Shown here one piece after another: positions 12,493 through 20,077 of a stretch of 64,000 bases of DNA. The notes beneath the pieces were generated by a model. The model did not search any database, was not told the origin of the DNA, and worked only from the letters and a program-made list of their open reading frames with translations. How positions within the stretch are numbered: position 1 is the stretch's first letter; each line of letters starts with the position of its first letter. The position numbers and the translations under genes were made by a program. The stretch covers positions 496,001 through 560,000 of the forward strand of contig NZ_JAIGNU010000002.1 of the NCBI RefSeq assembly GCF_019711655.1, in the 5' to 3' direction. Origin of the DNA: Qipengyuania mesophila (GTDB lineage Bacteria > Pseudomonadota > Alphaproteobacteria > Sphingomonadales > Sphingomonadaceae).

Positions 12493-14859
12493 ATGGGTGA
12501 CCAACGCATCTCGAAACTGGCCGAGCCGATCCTCGGCCGTTACCGTTCGCTGCTTGGCGGACGGCTGTTCGAGCGCATGCGCAATGTCCTGTGGGCGGGG
12601 CTGATATCGCTTGCGCTTTACGGGATTTGGTTCCTCCAACCGGCTGATCAAATGTTCTGGCTGATCCAGTCGCGGATTGCCGAGCGAAGCCCCTCGGGTG
12701 ATATCGTTTTCATCGGGTCGGATGAAGTGCTGAACGATCCGCGCTCGCCGCAAAGGCGCTACGAACTGGCCGAGGCCCTCGACGAACTCGACCGCAAGGG
12801 CGTGGGCAAGGTCTATCTGGATATGACCTTCGCCGAATCCGACGATCCCGAGGCGGATAAACGGCTCGCGCGTGCAATCGCGGACCTCGGACCACGGATC
12901 ACGCTTATCGATCGGAAGGTCTACGGGGCGACTGTGGATGGGGCTATACGAGCCACTTCGCCCGCGATCGCAGGCGCTGCACGGCGAGTCGTCTCTGACC
13001 AAACCGATCGCGACTTTACCGGCCTGGCGTGGGAACTCCACTACAGCTACGTTGTAGATGGCAAGCCAATACCTTCCGCGGCATCTTCAATGGCGGGAGT
13101 CGGTGGTAACTCAGACGCAGTTTTTTCCGTCGATTATGGCATTCCACCTTCACGTATTCCCGCGCTTCCCATAGCGGCATTGTCCGACAAAGCTGCCTTC
13201 GCGCCGACCGATCGCGTCGAGGTCACAGGGAAGACTGTGGTGATCGGTCACAGTGGACAAGTCTCGGGAAATCAACAGATAATACCAGGGCTGGCAAACG
13301 CACCTGCAAGCTTCGTAGATATTTATGGCGCAGAGACATTGAAGTCCGGCCATACAAGAACTCTCAGCGGCCTACCCATCGTATTAATATTTTCCACCCT
13401 TTTGATGGCCGCATCATTTCTAAGCAAAACACGAAAACGTCGCTGGTTATCTTATACTTGCATCACTGCATTTGCGCCGGCCCTCCTGGTCGCGGCGGCT
13501 CAGATCGGCCTGCGCGTAGAACTTTCCTATGGCGCCGCTGTCCTGATCATTTACGCTATCTTCCGCTCGCGAGTGCGCTGGAAACGGCGTCTCGAAATGG
13601 TCAATCTGGAAACTGGGCTCCCAAAGATACGAGCCTTGGAAGCGCGTCTCGTCCGCGATTCGATCGCCAGCGGCCACATAGTCATTGCCAAGATCCAGAA
13701 TTACGAGCGGGTCCTGAAGACGCTCCGGTCGGAGGACAAGGGCAGCTATGTCCTCAAACTCGTCGATCGGCTGCGCGCCGCCGATCCCAACTTGGCCGTC
13801 TACAACGAAGGTCATCATCTCGGTTGGCACGTAGCAACCGAAGAGACTGAAGCAGTCGTCGAACATCTCGAAGGCCTGCGCGCGATCTTTGCGGCTCCCG
13901 TCCAGGTGGGCGGATTTTCGGTCGACGTTGGCATCACCTTCGGCATTGCTTCGATCGATGGCGATCCTCCCGCTCGCATGGCGGCCGCCATTGCCGCTGC
14001 CGAGGATACGTCCGAAGCAGTCAATCCGATCGCCATCGCCGAGACCGGATCGCAGACAGATCTCTTGTGGGACATCTCGCTCCGTGCGCGCATCGACGAG
14101 GCAATGGAAGCAGGCGAGATATATTGCGTCTACCAGCCCAAGATCGATCTCGGCACGGACTCGATCGTGGGAGTGGAGGCCCTGGCGCGCTGGCACGACC
14201 CGGCACGCGGTTTCATATCGCCCATGCACTTCATTCAGCAGTGCGAGAAAGCCGGGCGGATGGAACACCTGACCCGCTACGTCCTCCAAAGCGCCTGCTC
14301 CGCCGGGCAGCTGCTGCATTTCCGCGGCCACACGATTTCGATGTCGGTCAATATCTCCGCAACCTTGCTCGGCGACATGCGCATCGTCGGGCTGGTGCGC
14401 AACGTCCTTCAGGCAACGCGGTTCGCCCCGCAATCGCTGACACTCGAGATAACCGAGACCGCGCGAATCTCGGACCATAGCGTGGCGGCAAGCATCCTAG
14501 AGGAACTGAAGGCAATCGGCGTCCGGATCTCGATGGACGATTTCGGCATCGGCGCGGCCAGTTTCGAAGCATTCTACGAACTGCCATTCGACGAGATCAA
14601 GATCGACCGGCTGTTCGTCTCGAATATCGGCAAGGATCCCAAGGCCTTGGCGATCGTCTCCAGCATTGCCGCGATGGGTCGTGATGCGCGAATCACCGTC
14701 GTGGCAGAGGGTCTGGAGAACCCGCAGGACATACCCCTCCTCGAGAATGCAGGCTGCCAGCAGGTCCAGGGCTTCGCCTTTTCGCGTCCGCTACCCCTAT
14801 CCAATCTCCTTGAATATCAGAATCTTAGCATAGAGAGGCCGGCTGCAAACATGGTTTAG
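12493..14859 (+). CDS. CHASE2 sensor with degenerate GGDEF and EAL phosphodiesterase domain
   Basis: A 788-residue membrane c-di-GMP protein. A TM helix at about 30-50 is followed by a periplasmic CHASE2 domain (to about 300; VFIGSDEVLNDPRSPQRRYE, TVVIGHSG) and three TM helices at about 305-390. Next is a GGDEF-like domain without a catalytic signature (EGHHL where GGDEF is expected), so it should not make c-di-GMP. The EAL domain keeps the catalytic residues: VGVEALARW (near residue 560), NISATLL, EITETA, MDDFGIGAAS, IKIDRLF, VVAEGLE and QVQGFAFSRPL, so c-di-GMP hydrolysis is likely. The segment from roughly 12.9 to 13.5 kb is noticeably AT-richer than either end. The 240 bases upstream hold a 6-bp hairpin (12417-12434) and AT-rich runs but no gene. 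The CHASE2 signal is unknown. Confidence 0.88.
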   Translation: MGDQRISKLAEPILGRYRSLLGGRLFERMRNVLWAGLISLALYGIWFLQPADQMFWLIQSRIAERSPSGDIVFIGSDEVLNDPRSPQRRYELAEALDELDRKGVGKVYLDMTFAESDDPEADKRLARAIADLGPRITLIDRKVYGATVDGAIRATSPAIAGAARRVVSDQTDRDFTGLAWELHYSYVVDGKPIPSAASSMAGVGGNSDAVFSVDYGIPPSRIPALPIAALSDKAAFAPTDRVEVTGKTVVIGHSGQVSGNQQIIPGLANAPASFVDIYGAETLKSGHTRTLSGLPIVLIFSTLLMAASFLSKTRKRRWLSYTCITAFAPALLVAAAQIGLRVELSYGAAVLIIYAIFRSRVRWKRRLEMVNLETGLPKIRALEARLVRDSIASGHIVIAKIQNYERVLKTLRSEDKGSYVLKLVDRLRAADPNLAVYNEGHHLGWHVATEETEAVVEHLEGLRAIFAAPVQVGGFSVDVGITFGIASIDGDPPARMAAAIAAAEDTSEAVNPIAIAETGSQTDLLWDISLRARIDEAMEAGEIYCVYQPKIDLGTDSIVGVEALARWHDPARGFISPMHFIQQCEKAGRMEHLTRYVLQSACSAGQLLHFRGHTISMSVNISATLLGDMRIVGLVRNVLQATRFAPQSLTLEITETARISDHSVAASILEELKAIGVRISMDDFGIGAASFEAFYELPFDEIKIDRLFVSNIGKDPKALAIVSSIAAMGRDARITVVAEGLENPQDIPLLENAGCQQVQGFAFSRPLPLSNLLEYQNLSIERPAANMV

Positions 14860-14918
14860 GCTTTACAAACAGACATGGTTAATGACATATAACTCTTGAG
14901 CAATCAGGAGGTACGACC

Positions 14919-14954
14919 ATGTGGGATTTCTGGGGTTGGCTTTTCGGCAAGTAA
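14919..14954 (+). CDS. 11-residue tryptophan-rich micro-ORF
   Basis: The frame encodes MWDFWGWLFGK and then TAA. A full AGGAGG consensus (14906-14911) sits 7 bases before the ATG, one of the strongest ribosome binding sites in the window. A perfect 10-bp hairpin terminator begins 25 bases after the stop, so a short transcript carrying only this frame is conceivable. Three Trp and two Phe in 11 residues make it strongly amphipathic or membrane-seeking, or a codon-counting leader. TATAAC at 14889-14894 could be a -10, but the nearest -35-like TTTACA is about 20 bases away. No tryptophan gene follows; the next gene is zwf, beyond the terminator. No function is assigned. Chance occurrence is possible, but the combination of strong ribosome binding site, coding frame and terminator argues against it. 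Confidence 0.5.
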   Translation: MWDFWGWLFGK

Positions 14955-14978
14955 GCCCAAGCCATCATATTCATTTCG

Positions 14979-15002
14979 AAAGGGCCCCTGACGGGGCCCT
15001 TT
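14979..15002 (+). terminator. Perfect hairpin terminator after the micro-ORF
   Basis: AAAGGGCCCC-TGAC-GGGGCCCTTT: a 10-bp perfect stem with a 4-base loop, the 3' arm ending in TTT followed by CTCGTTTC. It ends transcription from the EAL gene and/or the micro-ORF, or acts as an attenuator ahead of zwf. Being palindromic with an A-run on the left arm, it could work in both directions. Confidence 0.75.
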
Positions 15003-15225
15003 CTCGTTTCTGGCCCCGAATGACGAAGCCAGAGTCGGCGCGTCGATGGGCATGCCCTCGAGAACGACCCAGCCTCACCAACAATTGCTCTACTGTCGCG
15101 TAGCAGCAGTCCGACATTCCGATCTTTCCGCGCGGGCGAGAGTAGCAAAGCACAAGAATAGGAATGCAGTCGGCTGGCGCGCGCCTGCCTGCGCTGTTAT
15201 CCGCCTCTTCCGAGAGGAGAAACCG

Positions 15226-15249
15226 ATGATCGTCCGGCCCGCTGCATGA
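15226..15249 (+). promoter_or_regulatory. 7-codon leader frame overlapping the zwf start
   Basis: The only strong ribosome binding site before zwf, GAGAGGAGA (15212-15220), is placed for an ATG at 15226, not for zwf. That frame encodes MIVRPAA and stops at a TGA overlapping the zwf ATG (ATGA). This is a layout for re-initiation or translational coupling. The zwf ATG itself is 26 bases from the site, too far for direct use. The remaining sequence from 15003 to 15225 shows no gene and no promoter I can defend. Confidence 0.4.
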
Positions 15250-16688
15250 ACGCACCCGCAGATCGCCTGCTCTTGTTCGGCGCGACGGGCGATCTTGCCC
15301 AGCGCATGCTCCTGCCTTCGCTTTGCGCGCTCGACGCCGATGGGCTGCTGGAACCGGAACTGAAGATCGTCGGCACGGCGCGTTCGGAAATGTCGACCCA
15401 CGACTATCGCGATTTCGCCCGCGAAGCGCTGGAGAAATACCTGCCCGACCATCGCCGCGGAGGTGTGGCGGAATTCCTCAACCGGCTGAGCTATATCCCG
15501 GTCGATGCGACGACGCTGGAGGGCTATGACCAACTGGCAAGGGAAGTCGGTGTCTACGAGAAGGGTCTGGCGATTTTCCTGTCGACCGCGCCGAGCCTGT
15601 TCGAACCGACCATCGACGGACTCGTCCACGCCGGATTGACGCAGGGCAATGTCCGCATCGGCCTCGAAAAGCCGCTCGGCACAGACCTCGCCTCGAGCAA
15701 GGAGATCAACGACGCGGTGGCCAAGGCGTTCTCCGAAGACCGCATCTTCCGCATCGATCACTATCTCGGCAAGGAAACCGTCCAGAACCTGCTGGCGCTG
15801 CGCTTTGCCAACCTGCTGTTCGAGCCGGTGTGGAATTCGACCTATATCGATCATGTCCAGATCACCGTGGCAGAGACGGTCGGGCTGGAGTCACGCGTCG
15901 CCTATTACGACGACAGCGGGGCGCTGCGCGACATGGTCCAGAACCACATGCTCCAGCTGCTCGCACTGGTGGCGATGGAGCCCCCGACCAGCTTCGATTC
16001 GACCGCGGTTCGCGATGAAAAGGTGAAAGTGCTCCGCGCCCTCCGCCCTATCGCCAAGGACGAGACCGTGACCGGCCAGTACCGCGCCGGCGTGGTCAAT
16101 GGCGAAGCCGTGCCCGGCTACGACGAGGAACTCGGCAAGGACAGCGACACCGAGACTTTCGTTGCCCTTAAGGCGCATGTCGACAACTGGCGCTGGAAGG
16201 GCGTGCCGTTCTATCTGCGCACCGGCAAGAGGCTGCCCGAGCGCGTGACCGAAATCGTCGTCCAGTTTCGTTGCATCCCGCATTCGATCTTCGAGGGGCG
16301 TGGAGCGAGCACCCAGCCCAATCGCCTCGTCATCGGCATTCAGCCCGAAGAGAACGTCCAGCTGTCGATGATGGCCAAGGTTCCCGGGCTCGACCGCGAG
16401 GGCATCCGCCTGCGGCAGGTGCCGCTCGACATTGCCATGCCCGACGCCTTTTCGGGCGCGGTCCGCCGCATCGCCTATGAACGGCTGCTGCTCGACCTGA
16501 TCGAGGGCGACCAGACGCTCTTCGTTCGCCGCGACGAGGTCGAAGCGCAGTGGGAGTGGATCGACGCCATACGCGCGCTGTGGGAGAGCGAGGACATCAA
16601 GCCCAAGACTTATGGCGCGGGCAGTTGGGGCCCGAGTGCGGCCATCGCGCTGGCCGAACGCGACGGGGTGAGCTGGCATGACGAATAA
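15246..16688 (+). CDS. zwf: Glucose-6-phosphate 1-dehydrogenase
   Basis: A 480-residue enzyme oxidising glucose-6-phosphate to 6-phosphogluconolactone with NAD(P)+. The N-terminal Rossmann part shows LLLFGATGDLAQRMLLPSL, the dinucleotide-binding loop GATGDLA. The active-site segment FRIDHYLGKETVQNLLALRF contains the conserved RIDHYLGK substrate-binding and catalytic motif. The C-terminal half has the usual beta-sheet domain with YLRTGKRLPER. First gene of the Entner-Doudoroff operon; its end overlaps edd by 11 bases. No 6-phosphogluconolactonase gene (pgl) lies between zwf and edd, so the lactone must be opened spontaneously or by an enzyme encoded elsewhere. The start lies on a short coupling frame (see the leader feature). 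Confidence 0.97.
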   Translation: MNAPADRLLLFGATGDLAQRMLLPSLCALDADGLLEPELKIVGTARSEMSTHDYRDFAREALEKYLPDHRRGGVAEFLNRLSYIPVDATTLEGYDQLAREVGVYEKGLAIFLSTAPSLFEPTIDGLVHAGLTQGNVRIGLEKPLGTDLASSKEINDAVAKAFSEDRIFRIDHYLGKETVQNLLALRFANLLFEPVWNSTYIDHVQITVAETVGLESRVAYYDDSGALRDMVQNHMLQLLALVAMEPPTSFDSTAVRDEKVKVLRALRPIAKDETVTGQYRAGVVNGEAVPGYDEELGKDSDTETFVALKAHVDNWRWKGVPFYLRTGKRLPERVTEIVVQFRCIPHSIFEGRGASTQPNRLVIGIQPEENVQLSMMAKVPGLDREGIRLRQVPLDIAMPDAFSGAVRRIAYERLLLDLIEGDQTLFVRRDEVEAQWEWIDAIRALWESEDIKPKTYGAGSWGPSAAIALAERDGVSWHDE

Positions 16689-18495
16689 ACCGCTCAACGA
16701 TACGATCCATCGCGTTACCGAGCGGGTGATCGCCAATTCGCGCGACAGCCGGGCCGCCTATCTCGAGCTGATGGAGCGCGAGGGCGATCGGCAGGTCAAT
16801 CGCGGATCTCTTTCGTGCTCGAACCTCGCCCACGCCTTTGCCGGCGCGGAGGAGGACCAGGCCGCAATTATGGCGGCCAGGGGCCCGAATCTGGGCGTAG
16901 TGACGGCCTATAACGACATGCTCTCGGCCCATCAGCCCTACTACCGCTATCCCGAGCGGATGAAGATCTGGGCGCGCGAGGTCGGCGCCACCGTCCAGGT
17001 CGCCGGCGGTACACCGGCCATGTGCGACGGCGTGACCCAAGGCGAGGCGGGCATGGAGCTGTCGCTCTTCAGTCGAGACACCATAGCGCTTTCGACCACG
17101 ATTGCGCTGAGCCACGCCATGTACGACGGTGTGGCGCTGCTCGGCATTTGCGACAAGATCGTGCCCGGCCTGCTGATGGGCGCGCTGCGCTTCGGCCATT
17201 TGCCCGCGATCTTCGTGCCCTCCGGCCCGATGGGTACCGGCATCTCCAACAAGGAAAAACAGCGCGTCCGCCAACTCTATGCCGAAGGCAAGGCGAGCCG
17301 CGAGGAATTGCTCACCAGCGAAATGGGCAGCTACCACTCGCCGGGCACCTGCACCTTCTACGGCACCGCCAATTCCAACCAGATGATGATGGAGATGATG
17401 GGCCTCCACGTGCCGGGTGCAGCCTTCGTCCCGCCAGGTGCGAAGCTGCGACAGGAACTGAGCCGTGCCGCAACCCACCGGCTCGCCGCCATCGGCAAGA
17501 GGGGCGAGGATTTCCGCCCGCTCTCCCGCGTGGTCGACGAAAAAGCGATCATCAATGCGGCCATAGGCCTTCTCGCCACCGGCGGATCGACCAACCACGC
17601 AATCCACATTCCCGCCATGGCGCGCGCCGCCGGTATCCGGTTCGACTGGACCGACTTGGCCGAACTCTCCTCGGCTGTGCCGCTGGTTGCACGGGTCTAT
17701 CCCAACGGCTCGGGCGACGTGAACCATTTCCACGAGGCCGGCGGCATGGGCTACGTCATAGGGACATTGCTCGACGAAGGCCTAGCCCACGCCGACATCA
17801 CGACCGTTTGGGATGGCGGCTTCGAATCCTATTCGCGCGAACCCGGTATGGACGGCGACGCGCTGACCTGGCGCGATCCGGGACCTTCGGGCGACACCGA
17901 AATGCTGCGCCCTGCCTCGGGGCCCTTCCAGAGCGATGGCGGGATGCGACTGGTCCAGGGCAATCTCGGGCGTGCCTGTTTCAAGTCCTCCGCCGTCGAG
18001 CGCGAGCGGTGGACGGTCGAAGCCCCGTGCCGAATCTTCGAGGACCAGCCTTCGGTCAACGAAGCGTTCCGCAAGGGCGAACTCGACAAGGACGTCGTCG
18101 TGGTCGTCCGCTTTCAGGGACCACGCGCCAACGGCATGCCCGAACTCCACAAGCTTACACCCGCGCTCGGCGTGCTGCAGGATCGCGGCTACAAGGTGGC
18201 GCTTGTCACCGACGGGCGCATGTCGGGCGCATCGGGCAAGGTCCCCGCCGCAATTCACTGCACGCCGGAGGCACTCGGTGGCGGCCCTCTGGCGAAGCTG
18301 CACGATGGCGACATCGTGCGCGTTTGCGCGGCTACGGGCGAGCTTTCGACCCCGTCCGATCTCGACAGCCGCGAGCAGTCGCCGGCTCCCGATCCCGAGA
18401 TCGGCATGGGCCGCGAACTCTTCGCCATGTTCCGGGCCGGCGCGGACGGCGCCGAGCAGGGTGCATCGCCCATGCTCGCCATGGCGGGGCTGTGA
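16678..18495 (+). CDS. edd: 6-phosphogluconate dehydratase
   Basis: A 605-residue member of the IlvD/Edd family that dehydrates 6-phosphogluconate to 2-keto-3-deoxy-6-phosphogluconate using a 4Fe-4S cluster. Conserved pieces: [20 protein letters not shown] and [19 protein letters not shown] with cluster cysteines, the [13 protein letters not shown] segment, [19 protein letters not shown], and [20 protein letters not shown] near the C-terminus. Full length for Edd; the N-terminal [21 protein letters not shown] is typical of Edd rather than IlvD. Translationally linked to zwf (11-base overlap) and followed by glk after 2 bases. Confidence 0.97.
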
Positions 18496-18497
18496 CC

Positions 18498-19469
18498 ATG
18501 GAACTCGTCAGCGTCGATATCGGCGGCACGCACGCCCGCTTCGCGATCGCCACGGTGGCCGATGACGGCTCGATCACCCTCGGGGAGCCGGAGACGCTCC
18601 ACACCGAAGACCACGCCAGCTTCCAGACCGCGTGGGAGGATTTCCGCGAGCGGATGGGCGGCACCCTGCCCCCGCGCGTGGCGATGGCCATCGCCGGGCC
18701 CGTGGGCGGCGAGGTGATCCGCTTCACCAACAACCCGTGGATCATCCGCCCCGCACTCGTCCGCGAAAAGCTCGGCGTCGAAGACTATTGTATCGTCAAC
18801 GATTTCGAGGCGGTCGCGCATGCGGTGGCGCGCGTCGGCGACGATCAGTTCATCCACTTGACCGGCCCCGACAAGCCGCTCGCCCCGACAGGGCGCCTCA
18901 GCGTTCTCGGCCCAGGGACCGGGCTGGGTGTTGCCCATCTCTACCGCGAGCCCGATGGAACCTACCGCGTCTCGGCAACCGAGGGCGGCCATATCGACTT
19001 CGCGCCTCTCGACCAGATCGACGACGCGATCCTCGCCCGGTTGCGCAAGCGGCATACTCGCGTCTCGGTCGAACGCGTCGTGGCCGGTCCGGCCATTTCC
19101 GACATCTACCAGACACTCGCCGCGATGGAGGGCAAGCCGGTCGCCGAGGAAGACGACATAGCGATCTGGAAACGGGGCCAGGACGGCAGCGACAGCCTAG
19201 CCGCAGCGGCCGTCGACCGGTTCTGCCTGTCGCTGGGCAGCGTCGCTGGCGATATCGCACTCGCTCAGGGCGGCTTCGGCGGCGTCGTCATCGCAGGAGG
19301 GCTCGGCTATCGCATCCGCGACACGCTGGTGAAGTCTGGCTTTGCCGAGCGGTTCAAGGCCAAGGGTCGCTTCCAGGAGCTGATGGCGTCGATCCCGGTC
19401 AAGCTCATCACCCATCCGCAGCCGGGCCTGTTCGGAGCCGCTGCAGCATTTGTCAGGGAACACGCATGA
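18498..19469 (+). CDS. glk: Glucokinase
   Basis: A 323-residue ATP-dependent glucokinase of the bacterial Glk family (not ROK). It begins [20 protein letters not shown], the phosphate-binding loop, with [20 protein letters not shown] and [12 protein letters not shown] supplying glucose-binding Asn and the catalytic Asp. [16 protein letters not shown] and the [10 protein letters not shown] segment follow. It provides glucose-6-phosphate for zwf from free glucose, as expected in organisms that take up sugar through TonB receptors and permeases instead of a sugar PTS. Third gene of the Entner-Doudoroff operon; its TGA overlaps the eda ATG (ATGA). Confidence 0.96.
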
Positions 19470-20077
19470 CCATCGCCGACATCATGCAGACCGCACCGGT
19501 CATTCCGGTGATCGTGGTTGACGAGCTGGAGCATGCCGTGCCGCTGGCGCGCGCGCTGGTCGCGGGCGGACTTCCCGTACTCGAAGTCACGCTGCGTACC
19601 CCCGTCGCGCTCGATGCGATCCGTGCGATGAGCACGGTCGAGGGCGCGATCGTCGGAGCCGGCACGGTAACCAACGGCCAGGAGCTTTCCGAAGCGATCG
19701 ATGCGGGAAGCCGGTTCATCGTTTCGCCGGGCCTCACCGAACCGCTCGGCAAGGCCGCGAACGCTGCCGGAGTTCCTTTCCTCCCCGGGATTGCCAATGC
19801 CGGCGACATCATGCGCGGGCTCGATCTCGGCCTGACGCATTTCAAGTTCTTCCCGGCCATGGCGGCAGGCGGGCTGCCCGCGCTCAAGGCGCTCGCGGCG
19901 CCGTTCGGGCAGTGCCGCTTTTGCCCCACCGGCGGGATATCGCTGACCAATGCCGCCGAATGGCTCGCCTTCGATCCCGTGCTGTGCGTGGGCGGCAGTT
20001 GGGTCGCACCGCGCGGCCCCGTCGACGAGCGCCAGGTGGAACGCCTCGCACGCGAAGCCGCGACACTGGCGGATTAA
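19466..20077 (+). CDS. eda: KDPG aldolase
   Basis: A 203-residue class I aldolase that splits 2-keto-3-deoxy-6-phosphogluconate into pyruvate and glyceraldehyde-3-phosphate. The TIM barrel shows the catalytic Glu in [38 protein letters not shown], and the Schiff-base Lys in [14 protein letters not shown] (near residue 128). [15 protein letters not shown] is the phosphate-binding end. Last gene of the operon, overlapping glk by four bases. Confidence 0.97.

Follow-up and report, generated by a model that had tools for sequence, protein, structure and literature searches.

The locus behind a CHASE2–EAL gene

The window (the whole 64,000-nucleotide stretch of Qipengyuania mesophila DNA that was analysed) contains an 11-residue micro-ORF directly 3' of a gene encoding a CHASE2–EAL protein and on the same strand (EAL stop at 14859, ATG at 14919). 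The locus comprises the following features:

12493..14859, + strand: gene for a CHASE2–degenerate GGDEF-like–EAL protein, the constant upstream partner, 788 aa
14849..14882, + strand: promoter-like block, conserved in aligned loci, single copy in the genome
14849-14858, + strand: first block repeat ACATGGTTTA, overlapping the EAL gene stop
14862-14867, + strand: TTTACA, −35-like, within the promoter-like block
14873-14882, + strand: second block repeat ACATGGTTAA, containing ATGGTTAA
14893..14910, + strand: predicted 5' hairpin masking the Shine–Dalgarno (SD) sequence, CTCTTGA-GCAA-TCAGGAG, folding −8.9 kcal/mol
14906-14911, + strand: SD sequence AGGAGG, with a 7-base spacer to the ATG
14919..14954, + strand: micro-ORF MWDFWGWLFGK, 11 residues (ATG 14919, TAA 14952-14954), supported by comparison and a coding test
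14978..15003, + strand: intrinsic terminator, 11 perfect pairs and a 4-base loop, 23 bases 3' of the micro-ORF stop
From 15246: zwf, downstream of the terminator

A preliminary description had presented the frame as an isolated micro-ORF with its own terminator. Its placement of AGGAGG 7 bases 5' of the ATG was correct, and the terminator is indeed present, although at 11 bp and 23 bases after the stop rather than the claimed 10 bp at 25. The frame is not isolated: it is locked to the CHASE2–EAL gene immediately upstream, and the promoter-like block and the SD-masking hairpin had been overlooked. Further downstream lies an ordinary Entner–Doudoroff cluster (15246-20077), with zwf, edd, a glucokinase-like and an eda-like gene in a row.

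In the upstream protein, Pfam recognized CHASE2 (6e-9), an extracytoplasmic sensory domain, and EAL (2e-63), leaving the GGDEF-like middle unrecognized. The catalytic motifs EAL, SVNIS, LEITE, DDFG, KID and AEGLE are present and mostly retained in orthologues, and the protein is predicted to be a membrane-anchored c-di-GMP phosphodiesterase. The final codons and stop of its gene (..N-M-V-stop, 14849-14859) fall within the first block repeat, and the NMV ending was found again in many EAL orthologues, as though the DNA site had shaped the end of the protein.

Recurrence and coding signature in sphingomonads

Considered alone in the window, the peptide is no proof of a gene, and it is comparison that decides. 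A first pattern, combining SD, ATGTGG and TTYTGG, picked out relatives from three genera, and each of them had a W-rich micro-ORF that was preceded by the block seen in the window and followed, past its stop, by a hairpin. Two other searches were independent of the peptide. Using the CHASE2–GGDEF part of the upstream gene against 298 genomes of the window's family, we obtained matches in 80 genomes from 36 genera, and a micro-ORF of 10–41 aa was present in 70/70 examined EAL-anchored loci, 48–221 nt 3' of the EAL stop (for example, MSNRKIIQTVQAPRPTTTLEKRNVRGGIWDWVFGGYYR). An SD-like sequence was identified by script in 69 of these 70 units and a terminator-like hairpin after 68. The micro-ORF script favoured W-rich frames; two loci were inspected manually, of which one encodes the Trp-free product MIDLIAIALGSRRGS.

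The other search, which is less biased, used the pattern of block, AGGAG and ATG against 84,980 species genomes and returned 57 matches, 56 of them sphingomonad (two labelled merely as Alphaproteobacteria MAGs). Every one of these 56 loci had a W-containing micro-ORF starting from the matched ATG (for example, MWSIWRWFFTG, MGRSIWDWLFGGRSG and MLINIWEYLFGGRK) and, likewise in 56/56, an EAL gene just upstream. The sole non-sphingomonad match, in an Anaerolineae MAG, encodes an unrelated frame and was dismissed as chance. The block itself is rare: allowing up to three mismatches, TTTACAAACNNNNNTGGTTAA has a single occurrence in the window (0.01 expected), and the slightly looser TTTACNAACNNNNNTGGTTAA, with up to two allowed, has a single one in the entire genome.

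The coding test covered 103 distinct cores, drawn from 123 units with a recognizable core, in which [F/I] W D W L F G G predominates; W or Y occupies the first core W position, and W, Y, F or R the second, Trp being replaced mostly by Tyr, Phe or Arg. Of the single-base codon changes between near neighbours, 53% were synonymous, compared with 18% expected from random changes in the same codons, a large excess even though the pairs are not independent. At hydrophobic core sites, variation is concentrated in codon positions 1 and 3, with position 2 nearly constant, and the replacement of TGG by TAY or TTY requires at least two base changes yet retains an aromatic residue, which fits selection acting on the peptide. 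Judged by these codon changes, the core evolves as a protein. The residue between both core Trp ranges in charge from D/E to K/R across the family and gives no sign of one fixed interface.

A chance ORF is ruled out by the rarity of the block, the 56/56 block-anchored micro-ORFs and the protein-type codon changes. On this comparative evidence, the MWDFWGWLFGK frame is almost certainly a translated gene under selection, and the aligned peptides are a new, sphingomonad-specific family of microproteins of 10–41 aa with the core [F/I]W[D/E]W[L/I][F/L]G. Recurrence in both the EAL-anchored and the block-anchored loci upholds the earlier view of a micro-gene with its own terminator, and the family's size range agrees with the expectation that frames this short are typically left unannotated. 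A family-wide conserved gene that has its own promoter-like block, hairpin-masked SD and terminator, and a product down to 10–11 residues, is about as small as known genes get, and annotation pipelines usually omit such features; synteny combined with a promoter block can expose genes that are too short for protein search.

We also built a covariance model of the whole unit (nearly sequence-only), which scored the window locus at E 6e-26, with that locus itself included in the model, and which finds the unit within the window's family. Applied to 289 genomes sampled at class level and 80 at order level (some family genomes included), the model gave matches outside the family that covered mainly the terminator part or were too weak to count. 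Opening 20 weaker or additional family loci revealed 17 with EAL upstream and the micro-ORF behind, nearly all found via the RNA model, and 3 bare terminators. When 40 family genomes with no EAL match at 1e-30 were searched with a CHASE2 alignment, the micro-ORF was present at three loci and degenerate at a fourth. Five distant CHASE2–EAL homologues are without the micro-gene, which indicates that the enzyme can work without it and makes them useful natural controls. Overall, the micro-gene was seen only beside its EAL neighbour, which lies upstream in every convincing model match, whereas the first downstream gene belongs to at least eight unrelated groups on either strand; the absence of a tie to trp genes, suggested by the preliminary description, holds.

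Two loci, L237 and L238, carry remote CHASE2 genes. In L237, a CHASE2–histidine kinase–receiver gene (406-2610, −) is followed by a RiPP- or bacteriocin-like GG-leader peptide with the Trp-rich core ..EIEEIAGGGACPWWDIWCPLRRP.. (89-307, −); in L238, a CHASE2–histidine kinase gene (412-2670, −) is followed by MKSDIETLSLDEIETVAGGLWILCDEFWEPGPWTQFDPSSEN (149-277, −), which likewise combines a GG leader and a Trp-rich core.

Promoter-like block and RNA structure

The aligned block reads TTTACAAAC-N5-TGGTTAACG, with TTTAC and GGTTAA almost invariant across 35 aligned loci and TTTACA replaced by TTGACA in two genera. TTTACA can act as a putative −35 element, with a weak −10 candidate about 17 bases further, and from these positions we infer an RNA start near the 5' arm of the SD hairpin. 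In the window, the two block repeats lie 24 bases apart, and reading ATGGTTAA on the opposite strand gives TTAACCAT, known from Caulobacter as the CtrA half-site (PMC3692519). The CckA–ChpT–CtrA pathway is retained in Sphingomonadales (PMC2877005), and the half-site resemblance offers CtrA as a lead, a candidate regulator of the block; no full TTAA-N7-TTAA CtrA site was seen by eye within it. A CenR-type TGA-N8-TGA site was also considered and dropped, as CenKR has not been found in Sphingomonadales (PMC9275681).

In 102 of the 126 units, upstream bases pair with the SD core, and the pairs at positions after the SD are GC, AU, UA, CG or GU depending on the species. SD pairing stood at 0.73 compared with 0.57 in shuffled upstream sequence (p 1e-8, relatedness uncorrected). 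With the masking hairpin preserved by such varied pairs, translation of the micro-ORF is probably under control. The predicted RNA of ~115 nt contains two stable hairpins (folding z = −3.5); between genera, its untranslated sequence outside the block and SD is not conserved while the structure is kept, and the peptide is conserved.

A possible membrane-interface peptide and its alternatives

The best 9-mer of MWDFWGWLFGK has an interfacial free energy of −7.4 kcal/mol on the Wimley–White scale, lower than all 28,961 9-mers from the window's long frames, and the family mean for the best 9-mer is −5.3. Net charge is positive in 62% of family peptides, and for a relative of 41 aa AlphaFold2 predicted a helix across the core (pLDDT about 71–74). 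This extreme interfacial hydrophobicity makes the earlier idea of a membrane-active peptide plausible, and since a core of 8–9 residues is too short to span a membrane, the peptide is most naturally read as an amphipathic helix at the interface. The likeliest partner would be the CHASE2–EAL protein, because this membrane enzyme has conserved catalytic motifs and its gene is the micro-gene's constant neighbour.

Our best explanation is that a regulator, CtrA or another acting via the ATGGTTTA/ATGGTTAA repeats, would turn on an mRNA of ~110 nt, on which the SD hairpin would hold translation of the micro-ORF low until opened. The resulting peptide would form a short amphipathic helix lying in the interface of the cytoplasmic membrane, where it may bind and tune the neighbouring CHASE2–EAL phosphodiesterase and hence c-di-GMP. 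As a whole, we hold this mechanism tentatively, at somewhat below an even chance, with its membrane and partner steps drawn from composition and linkage. The tight linkage offers a direct, cheap test of microprotein control of a c-di-GMP enzyme, or of a role as CHASE2 ligand or partner.

The same strong interfacial hydrophobicity, together with the micro-gene's own promoter block, would also suit a membrane-bound microprotein with another target (envelope, division or respiration), with the EAL linkage reflecting shared regulation only. This seems rather unlikely, because the EAL gene stays upstream in all convincing model matches despite reshuffled downstream genes, suggesting a functional tie. 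If the RNA were instead the product, namely a small RNA derived from the 3'-UTR of the EAL mRNA in which the ORF is incidental or has a dual function, its two stable hairpins and its position in an mRNA 3' region behind its own promoter block would be accounted for. We consider this small-RNA idea, already raised in the preliminary description, weak and very unlikely, as conservation between genera extends to the peptide sequence but, in the untranslated parts, only to the structure, and no Rfam covariance model matched the window above its gathering score. A cis-acting leader or arrest peptide that controls the next gene by attenuation has a negligible chance of being correct: although the Trp codons, SD hairpin and terminator look like those of an attenuator, genera differ in the next gene, which often lies on the opposite strand, so there is no constant regulated gene beyond the terminator, and a leader, Trp or otherwise, was ruled out. 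The trp and tna leader peptides are likewise short Trp-rich ORFs ahead of a hairpin, from which the micro-gene differs in lacking a constant downstream gene.

Other small-peptide systems are comparable in part. MgrB, like the proposed product, is small and hydrophobic and acts on a membrane signalling protein (PhoQ), but at ~47 aa it forms a full transmembrane helix, for which the family's core is too short. The 7-codon microcin C7 gene mccA, which encodes an antibiotic precursor, is similarly among the shortest independently expressed peptide genes; unlike mccA, the micro-gene has no modification or export genes beside it.

A further alternative is that a Trp-rich signal peptide is secreted or released and sensed by the neighbour's CHASE2, which faces the extracytoplasmic side, giving a receptor–ligand pair comparable to ComR–ComS. 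The arrangement is suggestive, since a sensor gene is immediately followed by a tiny ORF that is Trp-rich and has a promoter block and terminator to itself, and the CHASE2 histidine kinase genes of L237 and L238 are also followed by Trp-rich peptides. In Streptococcus, comS is a tiny, usually unannotated double-Trp (WW motif) peptide gene with its own regulated promoter directly 3' of the receptor gene comR (PMC5131902). That system is Gram-positive, however, with an exported and matured ComS and a cytosolic RRNPP receptor, a type absent beside the micro-gene, whose neighbour is the transmembrane CHASE2–EAL protein and for which no export is known. The micro-ORF has no signal peptide or leader and no dedicated exporter adjoining it, MWDFWGWLFGK is very hydrophobic for a diffusible signal, and the micro-gene family, which need not be homologous to the L237 and L238 peptides, has no double-glycine leader (members of 10–16 aa have no room for one). 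We therefore judge such signalling unlikely. The broader proposition, that Trp-rich peptides of 10–41 residues are the cognate CHASE2 ligand encoded beside its receptor and set c-di-GMP in sphingomonads, is a long shot; if true, CHASE2 would gain a ligand, and a peptide signalling system would rest on one of the shortest conserved, independently expressed gene families.

Database searches gave no relatives of known type: Pfam had no match among 8 longer family members, NCBIfam gave these one irrelevant match (E 0.22), a PDB profile search returned nothing significant for the family, and we found nothing in the open-access literature on the motif string or on a sphingomonad W-rich small protein. 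Ahead of the same Trp core, five of the longer members begin with a common Arg-rich extension, MS(N/S/K)R(K/R)-x-(M/I/L)Q, after which AP comes next in most of them.
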